Made by a program: the position numbers and the translations under genes. Shown one piece after another: positions 3 to 26,263 of a stretch of DNA of 26,363 nucleotides. The stretch lies in the IMG/VR virus record IMGVR_UViG_3300036857_000487, positions 1-26,363 of that record; one strand, written 5' to 3'. The notes under the pieces were generated by a model, which saw only the letters and a list, made by a program, of their open reading frames with translations, did no database searches and had not been told where the DNA came from. How positions within the stretch are numbered: the first letter of the stretch is position 1; every line of letters starts with the position of its first letter. Source of the stretch: a virus.

Positions 3-392
3 ATGCTGGACGTGAATAATCTGGCGAACTCTTCGCGCGTCACCTTGCAGATTCCGGGCCTTTCGACGCCGGGCGATATCGCGCTGGTGGTGAACTACTG
101 GCCGAACGATCCGACGCACAACGAAATCACCGGGCTGATTCATCTGTCGAAAACCCGGGAAGTGCGGCCGTTCAAGATCGAAACGGAATACGCAGCCGGT
201 GAAACGCTGGTCGTTACCTTCGCAGCTTTCGTCACGGCGTTGCCGCTGGCCTTTACCGGAACCGGCGCGATGAAGCTGAATTGCACGCTGCGTCAGTACG
301 GGGATGTGACGGTCGAGCGGGAAGGCGCGCCGGATACGCTTAGCACGCGGCGGCCATTGGGTGACGAATCGACGCTGGAGCAGGTGGCCTGA
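3..392 (+). CDS. Major tail (tube) protein, C-terminal part
   Basis: The 129 visible residues are beta-rich, with alternating hydrophobic and polar stretches such as VTLQIPGLSTPGDIALVV. They end four bases ahead of the tail assembly chaperone, which is where the major tail tube protein sits in lambda- and HK97-like siphoviruses. The reading frame is open to the left edge, so the ATG at position 3 may be internal and the true start may lie outside the window. The assignment rests mainly on gene order; no diagnostic motif is present. The protein would polymerise into the tail tube in the virion. An alternative is a separate short minor tail protein. Confidence 0.6.
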   Translation: MLDVNNLANSSRVTLQIPGLSTPGDIALVVNYWPNDPTHNEITGLIHLSKTREVRPFKIETEYAAGETLVVTFAAFVTALPLAFTGTGAMKLNCTLRQYGDVTVEREGAPDTLSTRRPLGDESTLEQVA

Positions 393-393
393 G

Positions 394-807
394 ATGCCGA
401 AGCGGAAACGAAAAATTCTGCAGCGAGTCGAAATCGTGCTGGGCGACGAAGTGCCGCGCTACCTCTACTACACGCTGGCGGATGTGCTCGAGCTGCAGCA
501 GCTTCCGCAGCGGGATGTGGATTCGATTGCGGTGGCGATGTTTCTGGGGCTGCGCCACGAACACGCCGATCTGACGCTCGAAACCCTGCGGCCGCTGATC
601 GAAATGCAGAATCTGTCCTACTACAACGCCTGCATTGCGGAGGCGATGGGTACGGCAAACCCTTCCGCGGAGCCGGCCGCGGGCGCGGAGCCGGCGCAGG
701 CGGCAGCGGTCAACGGCCTGGCGGTTCCGTCGTTTCCGAGTGGGAGCGGCTCCGGGCTTTCGCTCGTATCCGGCTCCGGCTCTCCGAGTGGGAATTCTGG
801 GAGCTGA
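394..807 (+). CDS. Tail assembly chaperone, unshifted product (gpG-like)
   Basis: This 137-residue protein lies directly between the major tail protein and the tape measure gene, the position of lambda G. I chose the ATG at 394, one base after the upstream stop, over a GTG at 361 inside the previous gene. Residues 1-87 look like a folded helical domain (for example YYTLADVLELQQLP). After Ala-Asn-Pro at 88-90 the frame turns into a Pro/Ala and then Ser/Gly low-complexity tail (PSGSGSGLSLVSGSGSPSG). That is typical of a zero-frame tail beyond a slip site. It would bind the tape measure protein during tail assembly and would not be expected in the mature virion. Confidence 0.75.
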   Translation: MPKRKRKILQRVEIVLGDEVPRYLYYTLADVLELQQLPQRDVDSIAVAMFLGLRHEHADLTLETLRPLIEMQNLSYYNACIAEAMGTANPSAEPAAGAEPAQAAAVNGLAVPSFPSGSGSGLSLVSGSGSPSGNSGS

Positions 808-1067
808 CACGGCCGGAGCTGGACGCGTTAATCGAGCAGTGGAAGGAAGGGAACCGGCACTGGGAGCTGATGATGGCGCAGTTACTCTATCTGACCTATC
901 AGGCGAACAAGACGAAGGATGCGCCGGAGGTGTCGATTGAATCCTTCCTGCTGACGAAGCCGGAGGAATCGCTCGAGCAGCCGCGGCGGCGGGCGCCGCA
1001 GATGCCCAGCGGGCGGCAATTGGAGGCGTATTTTTTGAGTCTGCCGGGAGCAAGACGCCGTGGCTGA
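394..1067 (+). CDS. Tail assembly chaperone, -1 frameshift fusion (gpGT-like)
   Basis: A -1 shift at the heptamer A AAC CCT (657-663) joins the first 90 codons to a second frame that runs to the stop at 1065-1067, giving about 224 residues. The second frame looks like the T part of such proteins: SEWEFWELTRPELDALIEQW, then LLYLTYQANKTKDAP, ending in a basic tail. No ATG, GTG or TTG occurs in this second frame between 603 and 870, and its conserved part begins upstream of 870. Independent initiation therefore cannot produce it. The fusion end overlaps the tape measure start by eight bases. Siphoviruses need G and GT in a fixed ratio for tail assembly. Confidence 0.75.
657..663 (+). promoter_or_regulatory. 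-1 ribosomal frameshift slippery heptamer
   Basis: The heptamer A AAC CCT is phased exactly as X XXY YYZ on the zero frame (GCA AAC CCT). After slipping the codons read AAA CCC. It is the only canonical heptamer I found in the overlap of the two frames. A GC-rich stretch with repeated CCGCGG (665-670 and 677-682) follows and could fold into a stem, although it starts only one base after the slip site. Confidence 0.65.
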
Positions 1068-3936
1068 AGGCCTGAATCGAACCGTCAGTATCGTTCTGAA
1101 TGCGGTGACGGATTCCTATAACCGTTCCATTGCGGAGGCGCAGAAAACAACGGATGCGGCCGTTTCCTCGATTCAGGCTTCGGCCGCGAACGCCTCGAAA
1201 TCCTTCGATGCGCTTTCGGTTTCGGTGAAAACCTCCGGTCTGGCGAATGTCGAAACGACGCAATCCATGGCGGCGCTCAATACGGCGCTGAACGCATCGA
1301 ACGCGCAGTTTGCGCAGACGGCGACGGTTGCGGCATCGGCTGCGGAATCGACCAAAAAAGTAGCCGAGTCGGCGGCCGCAACGGCAACCGCGGAAACGAA
1401 TGCAGCGACGGCAACCGCGAAGGTAACGGATGCGTTCAAGGCCTCTACTTCCGCAGCGACGGAGGCAGCTGCGAAAACGATGCAGGTTGGTCAAGCGGCG
1501 CAGACAGTGGGCACGGCCATAGAGAATACCGGCAAACAATCGAATACGGCCGGCAGTTTCCTTTCGTCGCTGGGCGGCGCGGCGTCTAAATTGGTACCGA
1601 GTTTAGGTAGTGTGGCGACGATTGCGGCCGGCGCAGCAACCGGCATGACGGCGCTGCAGATCGCGGAAAAGGTCGGTGGCTGGCTGCTCGATACCGGTCT
1701 CAAAGCGCTTTCCAGTTCGGAAGCCTTAAAGGGGTTGAACGCGACGCTGGGAAGTGTCAAAACGGCGTTTTCGGAAGCGGCCGGTAAAGGCGTGGAAGCG
1801 CTGGCGCAGGCCTTTACGACACTGTTTGGGCCGGCGATTCAGAAAGTTTCCGGCTGGGTGACGGAGGCCTTGAAATGGGTGTCCGCGTTCGGCGACTGGT
1901 TTATCAAAAGTGGCGTCATTCAGAACCTGGCGCAGAAATTGTTCGATACTCTCAGTACCGGCTTCAGTCAAATCCGGCAATTTGTCAGCGGTGCGTTTGA
2001 AGGGATCGGCAAAGCGCTGGGCCTGGTCAATACGTCACTTGATAGCAATGCGAAAGCCAGCGATTTTTGGGCGCAGGCCTGGCGGACTTCACTTGACAAT
2101 GTGATTCATTACGTGGCGTATGCGGCCGCGGTCATTCAGGCCATTTTCGAAAAGCTGGCCGAACAGGCCAACAAATACAACGAAAGCATGCTGCAGAATA
2201 CGCAGCGCGAGCTGGCTGCAATCGGCGGGCTGTGGAACAAACTCGCATTAAAAATGCCGGAGTGGATCAAATTCGCCTTCGATGTGATCGGCGAAGATCT
2301 GGGCACGCTGCGCGACGGTCTGAAGAAGGATTTTCAGGAACTCGGCCATTCCATCAATACGGACGTCAACAGTCCCTTGAAAGGAATCGGGGATCGCATT
2401 TCGGATCTGACGAAGCGCAATGAATCCGCGATACAGGGAGTGGTGACGTGGGTCGTCAATCAAAAGAATCTCATCGATCACCTACATAAAACCGGTGATG
2501 CGCTGCAAGGCGTCGGTACGGCGGTTGAGACGGTGGCTGAAGCGCATCGTAAATTTTCGATGGATTCGATTCGCGCCTGGGAAGCGCAGCTCGCGCTGGC
2601 GAAGAAGCTGAATGAACAAATCAGCGGCATGACGCCGGTTTATAAAGAAGTCGATCAGGCAACCGAAGCCATGGCGCGGGAGGCAATAGCCGGCGCAGAG
2701 AAGGTGATTCGTGCAACCGAGTCGATCAAATTCGCAACCGACAAGCAAATTGATGACATGATTTACAACGTGCGCGAAGGCTGGAAGCAGCAGGTTTCGC
2801 TGGCCGGCACGAGTACGGAAGAAATCAAGCGCATCAATCAGGCAGCCTGGGCCACGATTACGCAGACGATTTCGAAAGACTGGTTCAACCTCTCAAAAGA
2901 TCAGCAGCAGGCGCTGGCGGAACTGGGCGCAGAGGTTCGCAAATCGGCCGACGAACACGGTCAGATTCTGACGAAGGATACGGAGCAAACCGGCAAAGAG
3001 CTGGGCAAACAAGAGTCGATGTGGAAGGATGCGCAGCGCAATATCACGAAGCTGGTGCGGCAGACGGCATCGGATATTACCGATGCGCTCTGGAGCGGAG
3101 ATAAGAGTTTCGGGGAAATCACGAAATCGCTGTTGACCGATATCGGCAAGATGTTTACGCAGATCTTTGTGCAGCAGGGCGTGGCAGCCGTCGGGAAATT
3201 CATTCAATCGCTGCTGGGCGGAAACGGGCTGACGGCAGCGCTGGGCGAAGTCACGAAGGCCTTTAAAGGTGTCGGCGATCTGTTCGGCGGGCTGGGCGGA
3301 GGCGCCGGGACGGCTGCTAAAGCGGGCGGCGACGCGGCCGGGGGCGCCGGCGGTGCGCTCGGCGGCGCGCTCGGCGGCATTAGCGGCGCAATGAACATGG
3401 TGACGGGCGCGATTTCCGCGGTGACAGGTATTATCGGCATCTTTCAGACGAAGGGCACGCAGAAGATCGAAGAAAACATCCAGCAGGGCGTGTTCCTGAC
3501 TTACATGGCCGTGCATGATCTTTATACGGAATTTCAGGCGTACACGCGCAATCAGGTGGTGGGCCTGCGCGCCGATATCACGCACTGGGGCAGTGAACTC
3601 TGGAACCAGTTATCGGCCGGCTTTAACAACATGCGTACCGGCTTTGCGACGATTACGGCGCAACTGGCAGCGCTGGCGGGCGCCTTCAATGTGCAATCGC
3701 TGGCGGATGCAATCAGCCGCATACAGCTTGCGCCGGCTACTGGTGTGCCTGTCGATGTCTCGAGTTTTTCCGTTGATTTCACGCCGGTTGTTTCGGTACT
3801 GAACGAGATTCGCAATGCGCTTTCGCAGTCGGCGCTGCGGCCGAATGTGAATCTGTCGGTTGAAACCGGCGTGACCTCCGACCAGGTGGCGAAAGAAATC
3901 GTGCGCCAGTTGCAGCTCGCGGGAGTGGTGCGGTGA
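1060..3936 (+). CDS. Tail tape measure protein
   Basis: At 958 residues this is the longest gene in the window, and it follows the G/GT pair. It sets tail length and travels through the tail tube during DNA ejection. Residues 1-160 are Ala/Thr/Ser-rich and probably coiled coil. Hydrophobic stretches follow around 180-330. Residues about 670-720 (ITDALWSGDKSFGEITKSLL followed by DIGKMFTQIFVQ) resemble the C-terminal domain of lambda-type tape measure proteins. A Gly/Ala-rich hydrophobic segment lies around 740-800. The start is a GTG at 1060, preceded by GGGAG, and overlaps the end of the frameshifted chaperone. Its stop overlaps the next start (GTGA). Confidence 0.92.
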   Translation: MAEGLNRTVSIVLNAVTDSYNRSIAEAQKTTDAAVSSIQASAANASKSFDALSVSVKTSGLANVETTQSMAALNTALNASNAQFAQTATVAASAAESTKKVAESAAATATAETNAATATAKVTDAFKASTSAATEAAAKTMQVGQAAQTVGTAIENTGKQSNTAGSFLSSLGGAASKLVPSLGSVATIAAGAATGMTALQIAEKVGGWLLDTGLKALSSSEALKGLNATLGSVKTAFSEAAGKGVEALAQAFTTLFGPAIQKVSGWVTEALKWVSAFGDWFIKSGVIQNLAQKLFDTLSTGFSQIRQFVSGAFEGIGKALGLVNTSLDSNAKASDFWAQAWRTSLDNVIHYVAYAAAVIQAIFEKLAEQANKYNESMLQNTQRELAAIGGLWNKLALKMPEWIKFAFDVIGEDLGTLRDGLKKDFQELGHSINTDVNSPLKGIGDRISDLTKRNESAIQGVVTWVVNQKNLIDHLHKTGDALQGVGTAVETVAEAHRKFSMDSIRAWEAQLALAKKLNEQISGMTPVYKEVDQATEAMAREAIAGAEKVIRATESIKFATDKQIDDMIYNVREGWKQQVSLAGTSTEEIKRINQAAWATITQTISKDWFNLSKDQQQALAELGAEVRKSADEHGQILTKDTEQTGKELGKQESMWKDAQRNITKLVRQTASDITDALWSGDKSFGEITKSLLTDIGKMFTQIFVQQGVAAVGKFIQSLLGGNGLTAALGEVTKAFKGVGDLFGGLGGGAGTAAKAGGDAAGGAGGALGGALGGISGAMNMVTGAISAVTGIIGIFQTKGTQKIEENIQQGVFLTYMAVHDLYTEFQAYTRNQVVGLRADITHWGSELWNQLSAGFNNMRTGFATITAQLAALAGAFNVQSLADAISRIQLAPATGVPVDVSSFSVDFTPVVSVLNEIRNALSQSALRPNVNLSVETGVTSDQVAKEIVRQLQLAGVVR

Positions 3937-7825: not shown

Positions 7826-10015
7826 ATGGCGGAAGCGGGTAGGGATCGTTTGTTGCGGGCTGCGCTGGCCTATGCGAAAGCGGGTTTTCGCGTGCTGCCG
7901 CTGGGTGTGCGCTCGAAGCTGCCGCTGATACCGGAGCGGGAAGGCGGCCGCGGCGTGCTCGATGCGACAACGGATGAGTTTCAGATCCGCGTCTGGTGGC
8001 AGCGCGAGGCGCAGGCGAATATCGGCCTGGCTTCCGGCGCCGGCCTGCTGGTTGTCGATATCGACGTGCGCAGCGGCAAACCGGGCCGCGAAGAATTTTT
8101 TGCGCTCGAACAGAAATACGGCAAGCTGCCGGAGACGCGCACGGTTTCGACGGGAACAGGCGGCACGCATCTCTACTTTCGCGTGCCGGAAGATTTCGCG
8201 GCACGCGGCCGGCTGGCGGCGCATGTGGATCTACGCGGCGTCGGTACGTATGTGCTGGCGCCTCCCTCGGTGCATCCGGATAGCGGCATCGAATATACCT
8301 GGGACGGTTTAAACGGCTGGTTTCAGGCGATGGCGGAGTTGCCGCAGGTGTGGCTCGAGGCGGCGCGAAAAGTTCCGGCTCGCGAACCGGCCGGCGATGC
8401 GAAGCAACAGGTAGCGCCGCGGCTGCCGGCGATTCTCGAGGGCTGCGCCTGGCTGCGCCATACGCGCGAGGATGCGGCCAGCCTGCCGGAGCCGGAATGG
8501 TATGCGATGCTTTCGATTGTCGCGCGAACCGAAAACGGCCGTGAGGATGCGCACGCTTTCAGCCGGCCGTATCGGGGATATCGGCCGGCTGAAACGGAGA
8601 AGAAAATTCGGCATGCGCTGGAGGATGCCGGGCCGGTGACGTGTGCGCGCGTGCGCAGCGATTTCGGCGAGAATTACTGTGCGGCGTGTTCCTACTGGGG
8701 CCGCATCGAATCGCCGGCCGTGCTGGGGCTGGAACGGCGGAGCTTCTCTCCGGCTTCACTCGAGGAGCCGGCGCCGGAAGCGGAGAGCTGGCGCAATGGC
8801 CTGACCCTGAACCGCAATCGCCGGCCGCATCCGAATGTGGCGAATGCGGCGCACGCGCTGCGCGAGCATCCGGGCTGGTCGGGAAAACTCGAGTACGACG
8901 CCTTCCGCGAAAAGATCATGCTGCGGGAAGGCCTGCCGGCGGCGATCGCTGCCGGCGAACTGGAGGAACAGCGATTCTTCTCGATTCTGACCTGGTTGCA
9001 GCGGACCTTGACGCCGACACTATCGGAAGGCGTGGCGCGTGCCGCAGTCGAGCTGGTGGCGCGCTCGCAGGCGGTGCATCCCCTGCGCGAACGCATCGCG
9101 GCCGAAAGCTGGGATGGGGTCAAGCGGCTGCAGGAGAATTTCTTTCTGCGTTATTTCGGCGCGCAGCCGCGGGCCGAACATCGCTACGCGGAAGATCAGG
9201 CGCTCTACTGGGATGAATGCGCGGTGGCGTGGTTTGTGCTGGCGGTGGCGCGCATCTTCCAGCCGGGCTGTAGCGGGGAAAGCATCCTCGTCTTGGAGGG
9301 CGGCCGGCCGTCGGAGGTGCTGGCTGCGTGTGAAGCGCTGGCCGGCGATGCTTCCTATTTGCTGGCGCAGCTTCCGTCGCGTTTCGAGTGGCAGGCCTCC
9401 GCGGAGCAATTGCGCGGTGTCTGGCTGGTGCTGCTGGCCGATGTCGGCCGGCAGCTGCAGTACGAACATGCGCGGCAGTTCCTGACGCGGACGCATGACC
9501 AGTACCGGCCGGCGCATAGCCGCTGGGGAAAGATGATCTATCCGCGGCAGTGCATGTTTCTGGGCACGGCGGAAGAAGAGCGTAGCTATCTGTACGGCGA
9601 AGGCATGCGCCTGGTCTGGCCGGTGGCAGTGGGCGCGGTGGATGTGGCCGGGCTGCGGCGCGACGTCTGGCAGATTTGGGCGGAAGCGCTGGTGCTTTAC
9701 CGCCGCGGCGCCGGCTGGTGGCCGAAAGCGGATCGGGCGAAGCTGTTCGAGCGGGAGCAGCAGGCGCGTCTGGTCGCCGATCCCTGGCTCGAAAAACTGG
9801 TCTACTATTCGCGGCAGAATCCGGAGCTTTCGATTGCGAAATTTTTCGAGGTATCCGGTGTGCCGCTGCACTTGCAGACGCGCGAAATGCAGCGGCGCGT
9901 GGCTTATTTGCTGGTGCAGGCGGGATTTCAGGCGGGAAAAGATGACGACGGCCGGCCGGTCTGGATCAATCGGGAAGCGCTGGAGGCGATGAGAGAGCGG
10001 GGTTTCGTGCAATGA
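7826..10015 (+). CDS. Primase-polymerase with degenerate VirE-like ATPase domain
   Basis: This 729-residue protein has an N-terminal primase-polymerase domain. It carries the metal-binding DID (78-80), GGTHLYF with His115, and the RGVGTYVLAPPSVH block (137-150). A middle region has Cys273, Cys285 and Cys288 in a zinc-site-like setting. From about 425 the text follows virulence-associated-E / D5-type helicases (SWDGVKRLQENFFLRYFG, FLTRTHDQYRPAHSRWGK, YPRQCMFLGTAEEE). The P-loop is gone: where the family reads GKST this protein reads EVLA (497-500), and the Walker B region is LLADV. It would prime DNA in the cytoplasm but probably cannot hydrolyse ATP on its own. The C-terminal 80 residues look like a small winged-helix domain. 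Confidence 0.85.
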   Translation: MAEAGRDRLLRAALAYAKAGFRVLPLGVRSKLPLIPEREGGRGVLDATTDEFQIRVWWQREAQANIGLASGAGLLVVDIDVRSGKPGREEFFALEQKYGKLPETRTVSTGTGGTHLYFRVPEDFAARGRLAAHVDLRGVGTYVLAPPSVHPDSGIEYTWDGLNGWFQAMAELPQVWLEAARKVPAREPAGDAKQQVAPRLPAILEGCAWLRHTREDAASLPEPEWYAMLSIVARTENGREDAHAFSRPYRGYRPAETEKKIRHALEDAGPVTCARVRSDFGENYCAACSYWGRIESPAVLGLERRSFSPASLEEPAPEAESWRNGLTLNRNRRPHPNVANAAHALREHPGWSGKLEYDAFREKIMLREGLPAAIAAGELEEQRFFSILTWLQRTLTPTLSEGVARAAVELVARSQAVHPLRERIAAESWDGVKRLQENFFLRYFGAQPRAEHRYAEDQALYWDECAVAWFVLAVARIFQPGCSGESILVLEGGRPSEVLAACEALAGDASYLLAQLPSRFEWQASAEQLRGVWLVLLADVGRQLQYEHARQFLTRTHDQYRPAHSRWGKMIYPRQCMFLGTAEEERSYLYGEGMRLVWPVAVGAVDVAGLRRDVWQIWAEALVLYRRGAGWWPKADRAKLFEREQQARLVADPWLEKLVYYSRQNPELSIAKFFEVSGVPLHLQTREMQRRVAYLLVQAGFQAGKDDDGRPVWINREALEAMRERGFVQ

Positions 10016-11044: not shown

Positions 11045-11263
11045 GTGAGGTATTGGACGCGGGAGCGTCTGACGCTGCGTTTGGACGCTGTGCTGGTGGA
11101 CCGGTTAGACGTGCTGGCGGAAATGATGCGCCTGACACGGAGTGCGGTCGTGCGGCTGTTGCTGGATGAGGGACTGCTGCTGCGCGAGCGCGCCTGGGAG
11201 CAGATGCTGTGTCCTAGTCTGGCGAGGGAAAGAAGCGGCGAACTTGACGGCGCAAAGCGCTAG
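11045..11263 (+). CDS. Ribbon-helix-helix DNA-binding protein
   Basis: With the GTG start at 11045 this is a 72-residue protein. Its core RERLTLRLDAVLVDRLDVLA followed by EMMRLTRSAVVRLLLDEGL is a textbook ribbon-helix-helix. It has one beta strand with alternating exposed residues, then two helices with an RSAVVRLLL second helix. Proteins of this type bind DNA as dimers and usually repress their own operon or an early promoter. GGAGG at 11032-11036 supports GTG 11045. An upstream ATG at 11003, preceded by AGGAG, would add 14 residues and overlap the previous gene, and it cannot be excluded. This is the last gene of the long plus-strand early and tail run. Confidence 0.7.
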   Translation: MRYWTRERLTLRLDAVLVDRLDVLAEMMRLTRSAVVRLLLDEGLLLRERAWEQMLCPSLARERSGELDGAKR

Positions 11264-12597: not shown

Positions 12598-12669
12598 CAA
12601 TTTTCGCATCGAACAGTTACGATGCTAAGATGCGAAAATCAATTGTTGCATCGTAAAATTTTACAATGC
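12598..12669. repeat. Cluster of inverted GCATCGTAA-type motifs
   Basis: GTTACGATGC (12616-12625) is near-complementary to GCATCGTAAAA (12648-12658), which in turn forms a palindrome with TTTTACAATGC (12659-12669). The core GTAAAATTTTAC (12653-12664) is perfect. A second inverted pair is TTTTCGCATC (12601-12610) with GATGCGAAAA (12629-12638). The motif recurs as GCATTGTAC (13128-13136) and GTACGATGC (13157-13165) at the start of the adjacent HTH gene. This is probably a binding-site cluster for a regulator. Confidence 0.6.
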
Positions 12670-13131
12670 GCGGATGCTACCAAAGTCGTTTTCGATGAAT
12701 CGCTCGAGCGACTTGCGGGACAGAAACCAGGCTCCGCGTCGAATAGCGGCAATCTTTCCATCGCGACAAAGTTCGGTTATGTAACTCGCCGGAAGTCCGA
12801 ATTCCTGGGCGGCTTCGTCGATGCGTAAAACGGGACGGCCGGCAGCCGGCAGGGATCGAGCAGGGAGTTGCCGCGGCGCGCTTGCAAGGGCGAGGTGGCG
12901 AGCGGGTGTCACTCGTACATTGCTGGCCAGCACATGCTCAATATCGACTTCAGCAAACAGTCGTTCCGGTTTTCGTCCTTCCCGTTTTTCTTCCTTGCTG
13001 CGGATTTCGCCGGCCGACACGAGACGGTATAACGTCGCTTTCGATTTGTCGAGTTTCTTTACTGCATTGTTCGTATTCAGCCACTTCTCGGAAGCATTGT
13101 CAGACTTGACGATTTTGCTCACTTCTTGCAT
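12661..13131 (-). CDS. Tandem helix-turn-helix regulator (excisionase-like)
   Basis: This 156-residue protein has two helix-turn-helix units. Unit 1 (about 17-66) reads KWLNTNNAVKKLDKSKATLY then RLVSAGEIRSK. Unit 2 (about 102-147) reads LRIDEAAQEFGLPASYITEL then CRDGKIAAIRRGAWFLSR. Both follow the MerR/excisionase pattern of HTH plus a short wing with an Arg-rich turn. A Pro/Ala-rich linker (80-100) joins them. Such proteins act as excisionases, repressors or replication regulators. Copies of the GCATCGTA motif flank both ends of the gene, and the last codons run into that cluster. No strong Shine-Dalgarno is visible. The neighbours, another HTH gene and RepA, suggest control of the plasmid state. 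Confidence 0.75.
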   Translation of the reverse strand: MQEVSKIVKSDNASEKWLNTNNAVKKLDKSKATLYRLVSAGEIRSKEEKREGRKPERLFAEVDIEHVLASNVRVTPARHLALASAPRQLPARSLPAAGRPVLRIDEAAQEFGLPASYITELCRDGKIAAIRRGAWFLSRKSLERFIENDFGSIRAL

Positions 13132-13177: not shown

Positions 13178-13588
13178 CTAACGAAGCCGATCCTGCAATG
13201 AGGCGAGCGTTTCGTCTATGGTGCTTAATTTCTCGACCATGCCTTGTACTTCCGATCGCATCTCGCCTACATCTCTACGGGCGCGTTTGATGCTCTGCCG
13301 CATTCCGCCCATAAGTGTCGTTACTGGGGCAATGGGTTTTGATTCTCTGGCTGCTGGGATGAGCGGTTCGTAGTTTTGCCTCGGTCGTAATTGTTCCCGC
13401 AATTGGACAATATCGGCGCGCAGATAGAACCGACCAGGACGGCCGCGGCTCTTGCCTGGCCGGATGTGGCTTTGCAGATTTCCTTGATTTACCAGCCGAT
13501 AAAAATGCTGTGGAGAGATTCGTAGAATGTGCAGTGCTTGGGCTGCATTGACGTATTCCGATTCTGTTTGTTCTGGTTCTGGTGTCAT
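13178..13588 (-). CDS. HTH / coiled-coil regulator, probably leaderless
   Basis: From ATG 13588 the protein has 136 residues. Residues 11-66 (EYVNAAQALHILRISPQHFY, RLVNQGNLQ, then RPGRFYLRADIVQLREQL) are a MerR/excisionase-type helix-turn-helix. Residues 95-136 (MRQSIKRARRDVGEMRSEVQ onward) are a coiled coil. An upstream ATG at 13663 would put coding sequence through two 25-bp palindromes, so I prefer 13588. TATACT lies seven bases before it (13596-13601 on minus), so the transcript may start at the ATG. DNA-binding head plus coiled coil recalls KfrA-like plasmid proteins and phage repressors. The function is inferred from that and from its operators. Confidence 0.7.
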   Translation of the reverse strand: MTPEPEQTESEYVNAAQALHILRISPQHFYRLVNQGNLQSHIRPGKSRGRPGRFYLRADIVQLREQLRPRQNYEPLIPAARESKPIAPVTTLMGGMRQSIKRARRDVGEMRSEVQGMVEKLSTIDETLASLQDRLR

Positions 13589-13595
13589 GGAGCAG

Positions 13596-13601
13596 AGTAT
13601 A
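13596..13601 (-). promoter_or_regulatory. -10 element of a probably leaderless promoter
   Basis: TATACT on the minus strand is separated from ATG 13588 by CTGCTCC, seven bases, and there is no Shine-Dalgarno. A good -35 is missing at 16-18 bases; that region is occupied by the first palindrome. This suggests regulation by the protein bound there. Confidence 0.5.
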
Positions 13602-13607
13602 GCCGAA

Positions 13608-13680
13608 GAGAACAAATCACTGATTTGTTCTCGCGTCACGGACTTTTGCTTGTGTGAGAACAAATCACTGAGTTGTTCTC
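13608..13680. promoter_or_regulatory. Two 25-bp palindromic operators
   Basis: The first site (13608-13632) is GAGAACAAATCA, one central C, and TGATTTGTTCTC, a perfect 12+1+12 palindrome. The second (13656-13680) is the same with one changed base in the right arm. Their centres are 48 bases apart, so they lie close to the same face of the helix. They stand directly upstream of the HTH/coiled-coil gene and overlap its promoter, as expected for autoregulatory operators. Confidence 0.8.
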
Positions 13681-13946: not shown

Positions 13947-14087
13947 AGCAGTGGATTTGGATTCCAACTTCAACAGGAAAGGTTTTTTCAATCTGTCGGG
14001 ATGATTGCCGGCAGAAGCCGGCACACCGAATGGTAGCCGCGGCCGAAGGCTGCGCTCCACATTCTTCGGTGTTTCTTTGCCAAAGGA

Positions 14088-14169
14088 TTATCAACAGGTT
14101 TTTCCACTGGCCTTTTTGAATCTATTACGTAGTTTCAAACACTTACAAAACGTTTTCCACTTTTCCACA
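14088..14169 (+). promoter_or_regulatory. DnaA-box-like sites
   Basis: TTATCAACA at 14088-14096 differs by one base from the consensus TTATCCACA. TTTTCCACA at 14161-14169 differs by two, and two partial TTTTCCACT copies lie near 14100 and 14153. Their closeness to iterons and to repA supports a real origin. Confidence 0.55.
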
Positions 14170-14219
14170 GGCCTGCGTTTCTAGTTGTCCGTAATGTAGT
14201 TCTAGTCACTAATCCTGTT

Positions 14220-14253
14220 CTACAGGATAACTACAGGACAGAAAACTACAGGA
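14220..14253 (+). repeat. CTACAGGA direct repeats
   Basis: CTACAGGA occurs at 14220-14227, 14231-14238 and 14246-14253. TCCTG just upstream (14213-14217) forms an inverted pair with the first copy's CAGGA. The repeats lie in AT-rich sequence between the DnaA boxes and the iterons, where an unwinding or second binding element would be expected. Confidence 0.55.
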
Positions 14254-14269
14254 CCAATAAAGATAGAAT

Positions 14270-14353
14270 CCTACCGTTTCAGCGGTGAAATGCGGAAAAC
14301 CCAACAAAATCACCCTACCGTTTCAGCGGTATTCGCCCTACCGTTTCAGCGGT
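14270..14353 (+). repeat. RepA iterons (3 copies)
   Basis: Three perfect copies of the 17-mer CCTACCGTTTCAGCGGT lie at 14270-14286, 14314-14330 and 14337-14353. Their starts are 44 and 23 bases apart, about four and two helical turns. Perfect repeats of this size next to a RepA gene are the hallmark of iteron-controlled plasmid replication. The third copy overlaps the repA stop codon. Confidence 0.85.
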
Positions 14354-15324
14354 CCTGGTTGACCTTTTCCTCGGGAGCCTGTTGAAATTTTGGTCGGTGG
14401 TATGGGCACGACAGAGCCGGGCAGAAAGACAATGCCGCCTTCTGTTTTGTGACCGTTGCGTTGCGCGGGACGCTGGTATTCAATCTGGAGTTTGCCGGGG
14501 AAGCAGGCTGCAACTTTGGCGAGTGTGGTTTTGATCCGGGTTTGGAAGTTATCCATGCGGCTTGCATCGTAATTCGACCCGAGTTGCTTCGATAATCCGG
14601 ACCAGGGTACGAATTGCGCCTGGCAGAGGCGCTCGGCATGATAAGCCTTCGCGGCGGTCAGCGCGTAGAGGTCCAGAGCAAGCGGTGAGCGTTTCAGGCG
14701 ACGAAGGGCAGCCATGTCGAGGGGTATCGGCGCCGCAGTGATAGCGCGGAAAAATTTTTCGGTCAGTTCGATGGCGTTTCCGAACAGGTCGGATTGTTGA
14801 GGATTCTTTTTGCTCCACCAGGTTAAATCGTCTTCGACGATCTTCATGCCGCTGCGGCGCCGGCAGCCGGCCTCGTTTGTTTCGAAGGTGTAGATCAGGT
14901 TGATTTCGCATGCGAATAGGCGCCGGGCCTGATCTTTCAAGCGGTTGGTATCGCTACGTTTTCCGCCGTTACTTGGGTTTAACCCCAGTTCGCGCATGAA
15001 GTCGCTGAGGCTATCGCCCAAAATGAGGCGCGGATTTTTCGTCTGCACCGCTTCCGTGACGATCCAGAACAGTACGAGTCGCGGCAGAGTACCGTAGGGA
15101 TATCCCAAAGATTTCCCGGTCAGCTCATTGCGGCCGGGCAGGATGGTCAGTGTGAGATTGCCATTTTTTCGTTTCCAGATGGGCTGATTGCCGGGATTGG
15201 AGTGGGGTAACGTGCATTGCACGAGTTCACGGCTCATGTAGGCGTATTCCGTTGCCTCGATTTCGGCACGCAACCGGCTCTGGATATCGCCGGCGACGGC
15301 TAAGATTTCTCGGGTTGATTGCAT
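14338..15324 (-). CDS. repA: Plasmid replication initiator, RepA_C family
   Basis: The 328-residue protein carries the text of plasmid-encoded RepA proteins: YGTLPRLVLFWIVTEAVQTK, then LGDSLSDFMRELGLNPSNGG, DTNRLKDQARRLFACEINLI, PIPLDMAALRRLKRSPLALD and LYALTAAKAYHA, VPWSGLSKQLGSNYDASRMD. It binds iterons and opens the origin, recruiting host replication proteins. The ATG at 15324 has AAGGAG seven bases upstream on minus. The last codons are made by an iteron. The gene is transcribed toward the origin, away from the recombinase. A full-length initiator among phage structural genes implies an autonomous plasmid prophage. The family assignment comes from recognition of the text, not from a search. 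Confidence 0.85.
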   Translation of the reverse strand: MQSTREILAVAGDIQSRLRAEIEATEYAYMSRELVQCTLPHSNPGNQPIWKRKNGNLTLTILPGRNELTGKSLGYPYGTLPRLVLFWIVTEAVQTKNPRLILGDSLSDFMRELGLNPSNGGKRSDTNRLKDQARRLFACEINLIYTFETNEAGCRRRSGMKIVEDDLTWWSKKNPQQSDLFGNAIELTEKFFRAITAAPIPLDMAALRRLKRSPLALDLYALTAAKAYHAERLCQAQFVPWSGLSKQLGSNYDASRMDNFQTRIKTTLAKVAACFPGKLQIEYQRPAQRNGHKTEGGIVFLPGSVVPIPPTKISTGSRGKGQPGPLKR

Positions 15325-15342
15325 TCAGGCTCCTTGTCGGGC

Positions 15343-15401
15343 AGCCCAAAATGCCGGATAATCAAAAGCGCGAAGCTTTCGCGTAAACGGCATTTCGGGC
15401 T
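15343..15401 (-). promoter_or_regulatory. repA promoter with nested inverted repeats
   Basis: On minus, TTTACG (15382-15387) and GATTAT (15358-15363) are 18 bases apart, a plausible promoter for repA. The spacer holds a palindrome with arms CGCGAA (15369-15374) and TTCGCG (15378-15383). Outside both elements, AGCCCAAAATGCCG (15343-15356) and CGGCATTTCGGGCT (15388-15401) are inverted with 13 of 14 positions matching. This is a likely autoregulatory operator, though an RNA hairpin is also possible. Confidence 0.5.
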
Positions 15402-15517
15402 GGTGATGTTCAAAGCGGCTGAGTTTCGGTCAGGAAGCGGACACTGGCGAGTGATAGGCTTCTTTTCCGGCGCTCTGTCGCCCGTAGCTAGTTTAGGGCC
15501 AAAATGCGAAGGCTTCC

Positions 15518-15580
15518 AGGATTCAGAAGCGTAAGATAACGGTCATAACCGGAATTATGACGCCAAAATCTCTGAATCCT
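15518..15580. repeat. dif/lox-like recombination site in nested inverted repeats
   Basis: The core is an 11-6-11 arrangement: left arm AACGGTCATAA (15538-15548), centre CCGGAA (15549-15554), right arm TTATGACGCCA (15555-15565). The inner arms GTCATAA and TTATGAC are perfect inverted repeats. CATAA-N6-TTATG is the central pattern of chromosomal dif sites used by XerC/XerD. A further perfect pair, AGGATTCAGA (15518-15527) and TCTGAATCCT (15571-15580), surrounds it. The site is about 230 bases ahead of the phage recombinase gene. Confidence 0.55.
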
Positions 15581-15617
15581 CCTCCCGGGTCCCAAACAGA
15601 ATATGGCCTAAATGTTT

Positions 15618-15701
15618 CAGAAACGCGCCAGGTTGGATCAATTTGCTTGTCGGGTATACGACATAGCCCCTCTTTTTTCGACGCAACCTAGCGCGTTTCT
15701 G
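15618..15701. repeat. 18-bp inverted repeat
   Basis: CAGAAACGCGCCAGGTTG (15618-15635) and CAACCTAGCGCGTTTCTG (15684-15701) are inverted with 17 of 18 positions matching, separated by 48 bases. GTATAC sits near the centre (15654-15659). It could be accessory binding sites for recombination or a large hairpin. Confidence 0.65.
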
Positions 15702-15797
15702 TGCGAAACAGCTCTATCAGGGCTCAAGTTTTCTCCGGATCTGCCGATCTGAGTGTTTCAGGCCGAAAACTGAGCGTTTTCGGGCCGCAAACTTCTC

Positions 15798-18243: not shown

Positions 18244-18662
18244 GAATTACCTGCGCTCGCGCGCGTTATTATAAGCAGCCTCGGAGGCCTGGGGGATGTT
18301 CGAAAGAAAGCGAGCGTGCACTAGGGAGCGGTTCCCGTCGTGCGAAACCCGCATGCAGTGTGAGGCATCGGCTTTGGGGACACTCTGTTTCCTGTTCCTA
18401 CCTCACTCCTGCTAAATCGTTGTGGTACGGATAGATACGCATCGATGGGAAAGTTGGGGTGGCGGGGGCTTCTCACTGGCGACGGGGGGGGGGTTCCGGC
18501 CGGTACAATTCCCTAGCGTGGGTGAAGGTGAGGCAAAGGCTGATAAATTCTTGTAATTCGCCCTTGACTTTAGGAAAATGGCGGGAGTATAGTTCTCACA
18601 AAACCGTAGTTTTGCCAGGAAATCTTGGTTGCGGGGTTTCTCCTGGGCGGGAGGATTGCCAC
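18244..18662. other. Possible cos region and late leader
   Basis: No convincing gene is present in these 419 bases between the HNH and small terminase genes. A run of ten G (18484-18493) is flanked by GGCGAC and TTCCGG, a composition seen at cos sites of several phages. A promoter is found at 18564-18593, and CAAAAC/GTTTTG (18599-18614) forms a small hairpin at its expected transcript start. Confidence 0.4.
18564..18593 (+). promoter_or_regulatory. Sigma70-type promoter before terminase
   Basis: TTGACT (18564-18569), an 18-base spacer and TATAGT (18588-18593) make the best -35/-10 pair in the window. Transcription would start near 18600, about 60 bases before the small terminase ATG. It could drive the packaging and head operon. 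Confidence 0.7.
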
Positions 18663-19136
18663 ATGTCGAATCCGGTTCCGACGCTGATTAAAGGCTTGCA
18701 CGGTACCCTGCAGCCGTGCCGGGCCGTCGAGAACGAACCGGAGCCGGCCGGCTCTCCATCGCTTGAACCACCTGCCTGGATGAACGAGTTTCAACGGGTC
18801 AGTTGGCGCGAAACACTGGCGAACTGTCCTTCCGATCTGCTGCGCGGCGTCGATACCGCGGTGCTGGTGCAGTACGTGATTGCGCTCGATCTGTACACGA
18901 AAGCGGCGCAGGAAATCAACGAGGTCGGTTACACTTCGCGCGGATACAAGGGCATTCGCACGGTTCATCCGGCCGTGCACGTGATGAACTCCCAGTCCGT
19001 CATACTCCGACAATGCATTCAGGAACTGGGGTTCTCGCCGGCTTCGCGAACACGAATCAACATGCTTGCTGATGTCGGAGCTTCCGATGAGGCCGGCTCC
19101 GACCACTGGGCACAGATCAGCATGACCTACACCTGA
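18663..19136 (+). CDS. terS: Terminase small subunit (P27 family)
   Basis: From ATG 18663, which has GGGAGG upstream, the product is 157 residues. The text PPAWMNEFQRVSWRETLANC, LVQYVIALDLYTKAAQEI, then HPAVHVMNSQSVILRQCIQE and LGFSPASRTRI is characteristic of the P27-type small terminase. That family's hallmark is a helix pair ending in the LGFSPASR segment. It recognises the packaging site and hands DNA to the large subunit. A longer frame starts upstream at 18459 but has no ribosome binding site and crosses the promoter, so I rejected it. Confidence 0.88.
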   Translation: MSNPVPTLIKGLHGTLQPCRAVENEPEPAGSPSLEPPAWMNEFQRVSWRETLANCPSDLLRGVDTAVLVQYVIALDLYTKAAQEINEVGYTSRGYKGIRTVHPAVHVMNSQSVILRQCIQELGFSPASRTRINMLADVGASDEAGSDHWAQISMTYT

Positions 19137-21567: not shown

Positions 21568-23145
21568 ATGACGAACGCACTGCCGCTGCCGCGAAATCCC
21601 GTGCTGGCGCTGCTGGCGCGTGCCGTGCGCTTCCTGAATCAGTACCAGCCGGATCCACGGCAAACGGCCGGTGGGTGGCTGCCTCCGCGGCGTGTGCCCG
21701 GTTCCTATCCGGTAACGCCAGACACGGCGCTGACGTATTCGGCCGTGTTCGCCTGTATGCGCGTGATTGCGGAAACGTTGGCCATGCTTGAGTGGGAAGT
21801 TTTTGAACGGTTGCCGGATGGCGCATCGCGGCAGCGTTCGGATGTGCGGGTTTGGTATCTGCTCAATCGCCGGCCGAACGACGATATGCCGGCCATGAAT
21901 TTTCGCGAAGCGGTGGTTATGCAGATGCTGGCCTGGGGCAATGCGTTCGCGGAGATTACCTGGGGCAATGACGGCTATCCGTATCAGCTCTGGCTGATTC
22001 CATCGCAGCAGGTGGAAGTACAGCGCGATGCGCGCGGGAATTTGCAGTACAACGTGCGCGGCAATGTCGGCGAAGCGGATCGCACGATTCCCGCCGACAA
22101 CATGCTGCATTGGCGCAACATCGGTACGAACGGGCTGCTGGGCTTGAGTACCGTGGCGCAGGCCTCGCAGACGATTTCGTTCGGTAAAGAGCTGGAAGTC
22201 TTCGGATCGGTCGGTTTTCAGAATGCGCCGTTTCTCTCGGGCTGGATGGAATATCCGGGGAAGCTGCCGGATAAAGAACACAGCGACGCGATTAAACGGA
22301 GCTGGCGCGAACGGTACATGGGCTGGCGCAATGCCGGCGAAGTGCCGATTCTAGAATCCGGCATGAAGTACAACCAGTTGCAGCTTCCGCTGCGCGATGC
22401 GCAGTTTCTGGAGAGCCGGCAATTTCAGGCTCAGGAAATCTGCCGCTGGTTTCGCGTGCCGCAGCATAAGATCGGCATTCTCGAGGAAGCAAGTTACGCG
22501 AATATTGAGGCGCTTGAAATCGACTGCTTTAACGAAACCTTCCTGCCGGCGACGATCCGGCTGCAGCAGGAAGTCGATTACAAGCTGTTCGAAGGCAGCG
22601 TTCGCACGTCGAAATTTTTTACCCGGCATTCGCTGACGCCGATTCTCAAGGGCGATCTGAAAACGCGCTATGAAGCCTACAGCATTGGCCTGCGCTATGG
22701 CTTCCTGTCCATCAACGATGTGCGCCAGATGGAAGAGCTGGACAACGTGACGAACGGCGAGCTGCGCACGGTGCAATTGAATACGGTGCCGCTGGACGAA
22801 TTCGAACCGCTGGCACGCGTGAAGCTCGAGCAGGCCGAAGCGGATTTAGCCTATCGCGAAGCGCAGACGGAAGCGCTGGTGACGCGCGGCGAACAGACGC
22901 CGGATGCGACTTCGGGCGGAGGCGGCGGCAGTGACTTGTTTACGCCGGAGCAGGCGACAGCGCCGGCGACGGATGATGTGAAGGCAGGAACGCAGGCCTA
23001 TCGGCGCCTGCAGTTGTTACAGATGGGCCGGCAGCAGCTCGAACTGCTGCCGGCTCGTGTCAAATCCCAATTCCCTACGACAGGAACGAACGGACATGAC
23101 GGAAACCATTCTATCCCGCGGAACGGCGCCGCGGGTTCGAGCTAG
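21568..23145 (+). CDS. Portal protein (HK97 family)
   Basis: The 525-residue protein shows the HK97-type portal text: YSAVFACMRVIAETLAMLEW near the N-terminus, AVVMQMLAWGNAFAEITWGN, IPADNMLHWRNIGTNGLLGL, then QAQEICRWFRVPQHKIGILE, SYANIEALEIDCFNETFLP. It forms the dodecameric channel at the capsid vertex. It is about 100 residues longer than typical portals because of an acidic, Gly-rich C-terminal tail (from about 425; GGGGGSDLFTPEQ). The tail overlaps the start of the protease gene. The ATG 21568 has only a G-run upstream. Confidence 0.93.
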   Translation: MTNALPLPRNPVLALLARAVRFLNQYQPDPRQTAGGWLPPRRVPGSYPVTPDTALTYSAVFACMRVIAETLAMLEWEVFERLPDGASRQRSDVRVWYLLNRRPNDDMPAMNFREAVVMQMLAWGNAFAEITWGNDGYPYQLWLIPSQQVEVQRDARGNLQYNVRGNVGEADRTIPADNMLHWRNIGTNGLLGLSTVAQASQTISFGKELEVFGSVGFQNAPFLSGWMEYPGKLPDKEHSDAIKRSWRERYMGWRNAGEVPILESGMKYNQLQLPLRDAQFLESRQFQAQEICRWFRVPQHKIGILEEASYANIEALEIDCFNETFLPATIRLQQEVDYKLFEGSVRTSKFFTRHSLTPILKGDLKTRYEAYSIGLRYGFLSINDVRQMEELDNVTNGELRTVQLNTVPLDEFEPLARVKLEQAEADLAYREAQTEALVTRGEQTPDATSGGGGGSDLFTPEQATAPATDDVKAGTQAYRRLQLLQMGRQQLELLPARVKSQFPTTGTNGHDGNHSIPRNGAAGSS

Positions 23146-23833
23146 CGCGGCACGAACCGAAACGATTTATCTCTACGACGTGATCGGCGGCGCCGGCCTG
23201 TTCTTTGATGAAAACGGCGAAACGCCGAAATCGATCGCGCAGCGGCTGGAAGGCCTGCGCGGAATTGACGAAATAGCGGTTCGCATCAATTCGCCGGGCG
23301 GCGACGTCTTCCAAGGCCTGGCGATCTATAACGCGCTGCTGCGTTCGCCTGTTCCCGTGACGGCTTATGTCGATGGGATGGCCTGGTCGATTGCCTCGGT
23401 GATTGCCATGGCTGCGTCGCGTGTGGTTCTGGCCGGCAATGCCTCGTTTATGATCCATAACCCCATGGCTTTTGCATTCGGCGGAGCGGAAGAGCTGCGC
23501 ACGCTGGCTGATCTGCTCGACCAAACGAAAGAAAACCTGATAAACGCGTACCAGCGACATTCCGCGGCCGGCCGCGATCGTTTGGCTGCTTGGATGGATC
23601 AGGAAACCTGGTTTTCGGCGCAGGAAGCAGTGGACGAAGGGTTTGGCGACCAGGTCGAAGAGGCCTTACCGATCGCGGCCTGTTATCCGGCAGCGATGCG
23701 GTTTCGCAATCTGCCGGCTTGGGTGAAAGTATCGGCGGTGAAAAGACCGCAGGCGGATGCGCGAAGGGCGCAATTGGCGGCGATGGGCCGCAGAGTGTTC
23801 GAGCAGTTCAATAAATCAAAGCAAGGGCGGTGA
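23096..23833 (+). CDS. ClpP-like head maturation protease
   Basis: From ATG 23096 the protein has 245 residues; a GTG at 23057 lies deeper in the portal gene. RINSPGGDVFQGLAIYNALL is the ClpP oxyanion and handle region. Ser98 in VDGMAWSIASVIAMA is the nucleophile and His121 in FMIHNPM the base. The third residue is probably an Asp near 142. It removes the N-terminal scaffold part of the capsid protein during maturation. It overlaps the portal gene by 50 bases and is followed by the capsid gene after six bases. Confidence 0.92.
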   Translation: MTETILSRGTAPRVRASAARTETIYLYDVIGGAGLFFDENGETPKSIAQRLEGLRGIDEIAVRINSPGGDVFQGLAIYNALLRSPVPVTAYVDGMAWSIASVIAMAASRVVLAGNASFMIHNPMAFAFGGAEELRTLADLLDQTKENLINAYQRHSAAGRDRLAAWMDQETWFSAQEAVDEGFGDQVEEALPIAACYPAAMRFRNLPAWVKVSAVKRPQADARRAQLAAMGRRVFEQFNKSKQGR

Positions 23834-23839
23834 CTCTCT

Positions 23840-25411
23840 ATGGCAGTAGCAGTAACACTTCAGGAACAGCGGCAGCGATCGGCAGATTTGGGGGCGAGAG
23901 CTACCGCAATTATGGCGATGGCGGATCAGGAAGGACGGGACCTGACGGATGCCGAGGTGCAGGAATTCGACAACACCATGCAGGAGCAGGCGCGGGTGCT
24001 GGCCGATGTTCAGCGGCGCGAGCAGCTCGAAGTGATGAACCAGCATTTGGCCGGGCCGGCTCCGGCCGCTGGCGTTCAGGTCATACACGTGAACGGAAAT
24101 GCGAACGGCAACGGCAACGGCCTGCAGCCGCGGCCGGCGCCGCAATCGCAGCAGCAGCGGAGCGGGCATCGCGTGCAGGTGGAGAACCGGGCCGCGGGTA
24201 ACTTCGGATTCCGTGATTTCGGCGAATTCGCGCAAGCGGTACGCAATGCCGGCATTCATGGCCGGCCGACGGATCCGCGGCTGCTCAATTCGGGCGGACC
24301 TCCTGACAACGTGATGACGGAAGGTGTGAATGCCGACGGCGGCTATGCGGTGCCTCCCGATTACCGGGCGGACATTCAAAGTCTGATCATGGCGGAAGAT
24401 TCGTTGCTGCCGTTAACGGACAACATCACGACCTCGAGCAACCGTGTGGTGGTTCCGATTGACAGTTCTACGCCGTGGGATACGATCGGCGGCATTCAGG
24501 CGTATTGGGATAAAGAATGCGCGCTGAAAAAGAATTCGAAGCTGGCGCTCGATCAGGTGACGGTCGCACTGAATAAGCTCTATGTGCTGGTACCGGTATC
24601 GGATGAGCTGCTCGAGGATGCGCCGGCGCTGGCGGCGTTGCTGCGCCGGAAGGCGCCGGAAAAGATGGATTACAAAATTTCCGACGCCATTCTGAACGGT
24701 ACCGGAAACGGCGAACCGCAGGGAATCTACACTTCGCCTGCGGCCGTGATTGTGCCGCGGCCGGGCACGCAGCCGGTGAAAACGGTGACGGTGCAGAACA
24801 TCGTGCAGATGTGGACTGCGTTCTATTCGGCGTCGCGTTCGGCGGTTTGGATCATGAGCCAGGATGCGCAGGCGGCGCTGCTTTCGCTGTACTTCCCGAT
24901 TGTGGGAGCGGGCGGAACGCCGGTTAGCGGGTTTCCGGCTTATCTGCCTCCAGGTGGTTTGTCGGCGGCGCCGTATGGGACGCTGATGGGCCGACCGATT
25001 GTCGTGACGGATGCCGCGGCGCCGTTGGGGGAAACCGGCGACGTCGCATTAGTCGATCTGAAGGCCTATCTGACGGCAACGAAAGTCGGAGGCCTGCGGC
25101 AGGATATTTCGATTCATCTCTGGTTCGACTATGACATTACCTGCTTCCGGTTTGTGATTCGCGTCGGCGGCACTCCCTGGTTTAAGACTCCGATTACGAC
25201 GAAATCCGGCAGCGAGCGTTCGCCCTATGTGCTGTTGGGTGGTGATGGCGTCACGGGTCGTGATACGCAACGCGGTCGGTTTGACAATGCGCAGGAACGG
25301 CAGCAGGCGCAGGTAGAAGGCGCCGGCGAACATCCGACGGTATCGGCAGCGCGACGCTCGAATGAACGCGCGGACGAAGCAGCGGCGCAGCGACGCAAAG
25401 AAGGGAGGTAA
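23840..25411 (+). CDS. Major capsid protein (HK97 fold) with N-terminal delta domain
   Basis: The protein has 523 residues. Residues 1-70 are a helical delta domain (RQRSADLGARATAIMAMADQ). An Asn/Gly/Gln-rich linker at about 85-115 (NGNANGNGNG then QSQQQRSG) is the probable protease target. The body starts around 125 and contains the usual NADGGYAVPPDYRADIQSL, then DKECALKKNSKLALDQVTVA, KLYVLVPVSDELLEDAPALA, and IWLSQDAQAALL-like text (VWIMSQDAQAALLSL). The last 55 residues are a charged extension (QERQQAQVEGAGEHPTVSAA) not found in short family members. It assembles as hexamers and pentamers of the icosahedral shell. Confidence 0.93.
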   Translation: MAVAVTLQEQRQRSADLGARATAIMAMADQEGRDLTDAEVQEFDNTMQEQARVLADVQRREQLEVMNQHLAGPAPAAGVQVIHVNGNANGNGNGLQPRPAPQSQQQRSGHRVQVENRAAGNFGFRDFGEFAQAVRNAGIHGRPTDPRLLNSGGPPDNVMTEGVNADGGYAVPPDYRADIQSLIMAEDSLLPLTDNITTSSNRVVVPIDSSTPWDTIGGIQAYWDKECALKKNSKLALDQVTVALNKLYVLVPVSDELLEDAPALAALLRRKAPEKMDYKISDAILNGTGNGEPQGIYTSPAAVIVPRPGTQPVKTVTVQNIVQMWTAFYSASRSAVWIMSQDAQAALLSLYFPIVGAGGTPVSGFPAYLPPGGLSAAPYGTLMGRPIVVTDAAAPLGETGDVALVDLKAYLTATKVGGLRQDISIHLWFDYDITCFRFVIRVGGTPWFKTPITTKSGSERSPYVLLGGDGVTGRDTQRGRFDNAQERQQAQVEGAGEHPTVSAARRSNERADEAAAQRRKEGR

Positions 25412-25417
25412 ATAGCA

Positions 25418-25516
25418 ATGGGCACGCAACCGAAACCGCAACCGAAGCCGGAGCCGAAACCGGAGCCGGATCCCGAACGCCGGCCGAAGCCAGACGGCGA
25501 CGAAGAAGAAAGCTAG
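25418..25516 (+). CDS. Proline-rich mini-protein (32 residues)
   Basis: ATG 25418 follows AAGGGAGG by ten bases, a strong ribosome binding site, and TAG closes the frame at 25514-25516. The product is mostly PKPxPKPEP repeats (QPKPQPKPEPKPEPDP) ending in an acidic DGDEEES. It follows the capsid stop by six bases. Such short charged-proline peptides next to capsid genes could be spacers or decoration tags. The frame is too short for composition statistics, so confidence rests on the ribosome binding site. Confidence 0.6.
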   Translation: MGTQPKPQPKPEPKPEPDPERRPKPDGDEEES

Positions 25517-25612
25517 CCTTATGTGCGAACTCTCGAACGGCAGGCCTTTCCACGCAGTCTATTCCTGCGCAGCAACCGGAGCGGCCTGCCGAACGGGAGG
25601 AGCGGAGCGGCC

Positions 25613-26263
25613 ATGAAGACGACGCTGATTGAGGCTCCGGCGACGCTGCCGGTTACGTGGGAGCAGGTAAAGCGGCATCTGCGGCTGGAGGAGCTGGGCC
25701 CGATCGAAACCTCGGAGCAAATGTATGTCATGCAGACGCTGGCAGCGGCTGCGGTGCGCACGGCAACGAAAATCCTGCGCCTGGCGCTGATTGACACGAA
25801 ATATGAATTGCAGTGCTATCCGCAGGAACTGCGCACGCGCTGCGGCTGCTGTGTACTCGAGCTGCCGTGGACGAATCTACTTAGCGTCGAACTGGTTACG
25901 TATGGCGATCAGACGCTGATTGCGGGCACGGATTACCGCATCGAGCAAACCAGTGACGGGCTGTATACGACGCCGGGCCGCATCGTGTTTAACGCCGGCA
26001 TCTTTGGTACCTGCTGCGGCGGCGGTTGCCATTGTGGCTGCGGCGAAGGTGATTTCGAAGCGGTGACGGATGATTTGCTGCGCGTGCGCTATCGGGCCGG
26101 CTACGGCGAACTGCCGGAGGATGTGCCGGCGGATGTGCAGTCGTGGCTGCTGCTGCGGATCGGAGCACTATATGAAAACCGCGAAGAGGCTACCGACGCG
26201 AATATACAAACCGTTCCGTTTATCGACTCGCTGCTGTCCGATCGGCAGTTCGAGTTTTCCTGA
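25613..26263 (+). CDS. Head-tail connector protein (gp6-like), Cys-rich
   Basis: From ATG 25613 the protein has 216 residues. The text PVTWEQVKRHLRLEELGP, MQTLAAAAVRTATKILRLAL, then DVPADVQSWLLLRIGALYEN and REEATDANIQTVPFIDSLLS is that of the gp6-like head-tail connector (DNA packaging) family. Unusually, it has nine Cys: 68, 77, 79, 80, 134, 135, 139, 141 and 143, with the last five in CCGGGCHCGCG. GGGAGGAG at 25596-25603 is the ribosome binding site. It binds below the portal as a ring. Confidence 0.85.
   Translation: MKTTLIEAPATLPVTWEQVKRHLRLEELGPIETSEQMYVMQTLAAAAVRTATKILRLALIDTKYELQCYPQELRTRCGCCVLELPWTNLLSVELVTYGDQTLIAGTDYRIEQTSDGLYTTPGRIVFNAGIFGTCCGGGCHCGCGEGDFEAVTDDLLRVRYRAGYGELPEDVPADVQSWLLLRIGALYENREEATDANIQTVPFIDSLLSDRQFEFS

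Follow-up and report, generated by a model that had tools for sequence, protein, structure and literature searches.

The window, which is the whole of the IMG/VR virus record IMGVR_UViG_3300036857_000487 (26,363 bp, 58.8% GC), encodes an HK97-type siphovirus as identified by Pfam and family matches, and in addition carries repA, a gene for a RepA_C-type replication initiator, with a set of short repeats at its 3' end and a tyrosine recombinase gene upstream (Table 1). A reading made from the sequence only had described a near-complete siphovirus gene set, and this is borne out by the small and large terminase subunits, portal, protease, capsid, adaptor, tube, chaperone and tape measure; no genes for lysis could be identified in the window, and several tail genes are without a family match. 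The two chaperone reading frames (361-807 and 870-1067) have the appearance of a programmed-frameshift pair ahead of the tape measure gene. Head, packaging and core tail proteins (terminase, portal, protease, capsid, adaptor, tube and tape measure) are ~89-96% identical in a relative, G001. Two further relatives, G003 (L014:3793-5523) and G004 (L016:756-2495), encode a tail-fibre-like protein of ~576-579 aa with collagen-like GPQGP repeats, which is missing from the window.

Table 1. Genes and sequence features of the window
Feature	Position	Strand	Remarks
Tail tube (C-terminal half), tail assembly chaperone, tape measure	3..3936	+	
PrimPol + VapE/D5-like helicase, probable lytic replication protein	7826..10015	+	Prim-Pol 5e-38, VapE-like 7.7e-33
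RHH protein	11045-11263		
Second HTH protein, excisionase-family DNA-binding domain	12661..13131	-	TIGR01764 32.6 bits, cut-off 28.8
HTH_17 regulator, candidate repressor	13178..13663	-	Probable start ATG ~13589
Two 25-bp palindromic operator candidates	GAGAACAAATCactGATTTGTTCTC 13608-13632; GAGAACAAATCactGAGTTGTTCTC 13656-13680		At promoter of HTH_17 regulator
DnaA-box-like sites	TTATCAACA 14088; TTTTCCAC 14100, 14153, 14161 (14088..14169)	+	AT-rich side of oriV
CTACAGG, three copies	14220, 14231, 14246 (14220..14252)	+	Between AT-rich region and iterons
Three identical 17-bp iterons CCTACCGTTTCAGCGGT	14270-14286, 14314-14330, 14337-14353	+	Spacings 44 and 23
repA, RepA_C-type replication initiator, 328 aa	14338..15324	-	Pfam PF04796 E 2.8e-27
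repA leader	15325..15600	-	Nearly invariant in three copies; long hairpin 15344-15400 just before RBS
Palindrome GTCATAA-CCGGAA-TTATGAC	15542..15561		dif/cer-like inner core; identical in both G001 copies
Inverted repeat CAGAAACGCGCcAGGTTG / CAACCTAGCGCGTTTCTG	15618..15704		Upstream of recombinase; central ~50 bp varies among three aligned copies
Simple tyrosine recombinase, Cre-like, 309 aa	15798..16727	+	HSLR / GHR / Y catalytic motifs; no arm-binding domain
Terminase small subunit, P27 family	18459-19136	+	
Terminase large subunit	19216-20970	+	
Portal, head maturation protease (ClpP-like), HK97-type major capsid, head-tail adaptor	21568..26263	+	

The tail tube gene is cut midway by the left end of the window, and the right end truncates a stopper gene that begins at ~26270; direct or inverted terminal repeats of 10-299 bp were not found in the window. 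In the relatives G001, G002, G003, G004 and G005 the counterparts of the two ends lie ~1.36-1.37 kb apart, and in G001 this gap holds genes for the stopper, an HK97-gp10-like protein, the tail terminator and the remainder of the tube protein, names which were assigned by gene order and reading. Since the window ends are joined across the gap in the relatives, the full molecule would measure ~27.7 kb with a circular gene order, and, as this join falls within the structural operon and spans ~1.37 kb, the template of the window is, judged from these comparisons, circular or concatemeric. Such a template fits an episome and packaged, permuted virion DNA alike. G001 (31,154 bp) comprises one full round of the map, with a unit of 28.2 kb, plus 2.9 kb, and its repeated end parts (L011:1-2881 and L012:13237-16154), which both bear the recombinase region, are 84% identical, too little for a simple terminal redundancy. 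Two related elements may stand in tandem in G001, or the assembly may have switched strains on a circular graph, and both readings need a circular or concatemeric template. Host genes flanking the element with attL and attR, which would speak against a plasmid prophage, were looked for and none were seen; neither the window nor the contigs of close relatives contain a stretch recognisable as host DNA at their flanks, and the window contains no tRNA and hence no candidate for a tRNA attachment site.

RepA matches the Pfam RepA_C family with 96.6 bits, where the cut-off is 26, in agreement with the initiator proposed earlier, and its gene has a ribosome-binding site (AAGGAG) just 5' of the ATG. 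The protein matches 904 plasmid records (E<1e-5) as against one of 50,697 phage records. That one record, OR850969.1, is an unannotated 'Salmonella phage' of 3,940 bp which resembles a small plasmid that was entered under the name of a phage. RepA is 41-48% identical to plasmid RepA proteins and 63% identical to that of G001, and among 150 genomes from the order to which a Bryobacterales MAG belongs, 6 contain homologs with 35-48% identity. A sequence search of the PDB returned nothing relevant, and an AlphaFold2 model built from two sequences reached a pLDDT of 42.

The last bases of repA belong to the third iteron as well, which places the origin 3' of the gene; from there outwards follow the iterons, the CTACAGG repeats, the TTTTCCAC boxes and TTATCAACA. 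The three perfect iterons of the sequence-only reading are exact copies, and no further copy exists elsewhere in the window even when three mismatches are allowed. Three identical 17-mers within 150 bp arose in none of 100 base shuffles, and elsewhere in IMG/VR the 17-mer is found in three copies in G001 and otherwise as eight single matches, read as chance level. The DnaA-box-like sites reported earlier also stand up, in that TTTTCCACA at 14161 is the sole TTWTNCACA on both strands of the window and TTATCAACA is likewise unique, and the three copies each of TTTTCCAC and CTACAGG are confined to the same ~160-bp stretch. The GC content of 14086-14290 is 39% compared with 59% overall. The origin had been placed at 14270-15324, an interval which does contain repA and the iterons, but the origin reaches out to ~14085. 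In G001 the iterons are identical in 51 of 51 bases although RepA is only ~63% identical, and all three CTACAGG copies have become CTTCAGG; fixed iterons beside changed CTACAGG repeats would be the pattern expected of selection on binding sites. An Rfam search yielded nothing.

The case for a replicon of known type, as opposed to a chance repeat, is made most strongly by the core of the iterons and their phasing, which are common to plasmids. At four Bryobacterales loci (L043-L046) repA is followed directly by three iterons whose core is that of the window, namely ACCGTTTCAsCG in the orientation of the window or CGsTGAAACGG(T/G) in that of repA. This core recurs on the same side of repA and in the same orientation in Granulicella pACIX902 (CGCTGAAACGGTAGC) and pACIX904 and in Pelobacter pPRO2, with variants in Methylomagnum, Polaromonas and Pseudanabaena, and was not seen at three loci (L031, L047 and pRM21). 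The distances from core to core are nearly throughout 22-24, 33-35, 44-45 or 53 bp, which are multiples of ~11 bp to within ~2 bp, the exception being one of 71 in Methylomagnum; the 44/23 spacing of the window differs from the usual 33/24 by approximately one helix turn. The RepA_C plasmids and contigs (pACIX902, pACIX904, pPRO2 and those of Bryobacterales) are alike in having a RepA 41-48% identical to that of the window and at least three iterons. They differ in that parA lies near repA in L030, pACIX902, Methylomagnum and Polaromonas, and the remainder of the window molecule is a siphovirus. The locus contains the initiator domain, phased repeats and DnaA box with AT-rich region of a RepA_C iteron replicon, the last recognised by sequence match only. 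By this comparison the replicon is real and of plasmid type, and the earlier view of initiator and iterons as a plasmid-type replicon holds, the combination being common to plasmids of Acidobacteriota and others. The relatives of RepA and of the large terminase subunit suggest that the host is probably a member of the Acidobacteriota.

An experimental precedent for this layout is provided by SGI1 (Salmonella Genomic Island 1), whose Rep has a RepA_C domain and is needed for SGI1 replication, and in which a 255-bp deletion immediately 3' of rep abolishes replication; the AT-rich regions lost with this deletion hold three imperfect 8-bp repeats, and a DnaA box and four 17-bp iterons are removed as well (PMC7433901). 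Both origins follow an initiator of the RepA_C type and have 17-bp iterons, a DnaA box and AT-rich short repeats directly 3' of the gene. The SGI1 iteron (RKGGGGGHRATTATGCG) is unrelated in sequence to that of the window, and unlike the window SGI1, an integrative mobilizable island, has no genes for phage structure. Since SGI1 has the same layout and is integrative, the replicon by itself is insufficient to prove plasmid lysogeny.

The best match of the recombinase in the PDB is P1 Cre (residues 23-297, E 7.7e-10), followed by a XerC-like protein (1.5e-4), and the XerD and XerC families of NCBIfam match it weakly, far short of their cut-offs. It matches 2,674 plasmid records and 27 of 50,697 phage records, and the 25 of these 27 that were listed comprise P1-like Cre proteins, the Streptomyces plasmid-prophage ZL12 and two cyanophages. 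ZL12 (pZL12) has a related recombinase (29.5%) and is among the few such phage records; it differs in its size of 90 kb and in having no RepA match at the cut-off used. Homologs with 32-44% identity are common in Bryobacterales genomes, where several (36-44%) sit between chromosomal and island genes. A recombination site shared upstream of these relatives was not found, and a search for attB in 257 genomes of the order gave matches of at most ~31 bp.

The leader of repA folds strongly (z-score -4.0) and seems more conserved than the coding sequence. It is a candidate RNA or operator control region, and RNA-based control of copy number is possible. Within it lies the only CATAA-N6-TTATG of the window (15542-15561), a candidate for a Cre/Xer-type recombination core, an operator or a part of the leader hairpin; as this palindrome is conserved and also inside the stable leader fold, it is given no firm role as a recombination site. 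The inverted repeat at 15618-15704 is a further candidate for a recombination or control site.

The HTH_17 regulator falls slightly under the Pfam gathering cut-off (1.8e-5), and of its two operator candidates that at 13656-13680 has one mismatched pair. In G001 the matching place is occupied by different direct repeats (CAAGCTGTCTCA), a difference which suggests divergence of the immunity type. The excisionase-type HTH protein has homologs in G001 and G003 with 33-34% identity. Family searches found no ParA-type ATPase in the window, G001 or the junction, so that the earlier statement that none is recognisable in the window extends to the missing junction; in L030, a RepA relative, parA adjoins repA. 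The RHH protein at 11045-11263 is no partition system by itself as it is without an ATPase. No toxin-antitoxin system was recognised, and PADLOC gave only weak HTH matches on the small ORFs.

Taken together, the element is likely to be a temperate siphovirus that is maintained between infections as a RepA/iteron plasmid. The sequence-only reading had likewise inferred a plasmid prophage; the low copy number that it added is conjectural. This reading is based on an initiator with 904 plasmid relatives and one short 'phage' record, on iterons that are kept in G001 and have a core common to plasmids, on a layout as in the deletion-proven SGI1 oriV, and on contig ends inside the structural operon, the lack of a recognised host flank and the Cre-like recombinase. 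The element combines tailed-phage structural and packaging genes with a plasmid-type initiator and origin; the partition system that is usual, if not universal, in phage-plasmids was not found. It is proposed that RepA would bind the three iterons that adjoin the 3' end of its gene and, together with host DnaA at the adjacent boxes, would open the AT-rich stretch 14085-14270 and load the host replisome, leaving lytic-phase replication to the PrimPol-VapE protein. The Cre-like recombinase encoded beside repA may circularise the genome and/or resolve plasmid multimers, as P1 Cre serves multimer resolution (PMC10879196), and such resolution could help to stand in for the missing partition system.

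P1 and other phage-plasmids likewise have a plasmid initiator and a Cre-type recombinase on a tailed-phage genome and, for the lytic phase, another replication protein of a different kind. The arrangement had been compared with that of P1, a parallel which stands for the Cre-like recombinase but not for RepA, which is of the RepA_C type and without a relative in P1-like phages among the matches in the 50,697 phage records. The element is a siphovirus of ~27.7 kb and, unlike P1, has neither a P1-type RepA nor ParA/ParB, myovirus genes or a recognised addiction module, the recombinase alone being related. Phage-plasmids typically have no integrases and rely on partition systems (PMC12977533), and the lack of a recognised ParA or toxin-antitoxin system counts against the phage-plasmid reading, as do the excisionase-type HTH protein and the recombinase relatives near chromosomal genes in Bryobacterales. 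The 84% identity of the G001 ends, as a tandem or a strain-switch chimera, is also counted against it, and packaged virion DNA could give a permuted contig as well.

The chief rival is an integrative temperate phage resembling SGI1, whose recombinase and excisionase-like HTH protein would integrate and excise the genome and whose RepA and iterons would act to amplify it only once it is excised. It is retained because SGI1, an integrative element whose Rep and oriV act on the excised form (PMC7433901), uses the same architecture, and because of the recombinase relatives beside chromosomal genes; the excisionase-family protein is a further point in its favour. It is nevertheless considered unlikely, as the window and its close relatives gave no recognisable host junction, no attB-like match exceeded ~31 bp in the 257 genomes and no tRNA is present, the recombinase has no arm-binding domain and its listed phage matches are almost all P1-like Cre and ZL12, and the PrimPol-VapE protein already provides lytic replication. 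A virulent phage, for which RepA and the iterons are an ordinary lytic origin and which is never kept as a plasmid, would account for permuted contigs as headful-packaged virion DNA, and nothing proves lysogeny, but the plasmid type of both iterons and RepA, the separate PrimPol-VapE protein, the Cre-like recombinase and the regulator with its paired operator candidates make it highly improbable. A plasmid with captured phage genes or a phage remnant unable to form particles, which the unrecognised lysis genes and unmatched tail genes might indicate, is just as improbable given the ~89-96% identity of the structural and packaging proteins in G001 and the presence of the missing junction genes in relatives.

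A profile search of IMG/VR with RepA found 12 further contigs, none of which gave a tyrosine recombinase match. One of the 12, G273 (L098, 55.4 kb), encodes RepA_C, ParA and RecT together with a terminase and a portal; a cyclodipeptide synthase and a histidine kinase are encoded on it too. It is a candidate for a second, unrelated RepA_C phage-plasmid, and its gene content implies that phage-plasmids of this type may have arisen more than once.

Phage-plasmids have mostly been described from cultured Proteobacteria, Firmicutes and Actinobacteria. Such elements are already known as a class, and what is unusual here is the RepA_C replicon type, which is essentially absent from collected phage genomes (the one 3.9-kb record among 50,697) and yet common on plasmids including those of Acidobacteria. 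The compact origin might serve as a shuttle-vector replicon for Acidobacteria, which are hard to manipulate. More tentatively, and with some doubt, it can be envisaged that a lineage of Acidobacteria siphoviruses took its RepA/iteron replicon from resident plasmids and segregates free of ParA by means of the Cre-like enzyme, whose target site would lie between repA and the recombinase gene, the whole forming one transferable maintenance cassette. If the phage-plasmid reading is true, the element would be a small siphoviral phage-plasmid, probably from Acidobacteria, and would document the exchange of replicons between plasmids and phages; shared iterons would then also imply incompatibility between the phage and resident plasmids.
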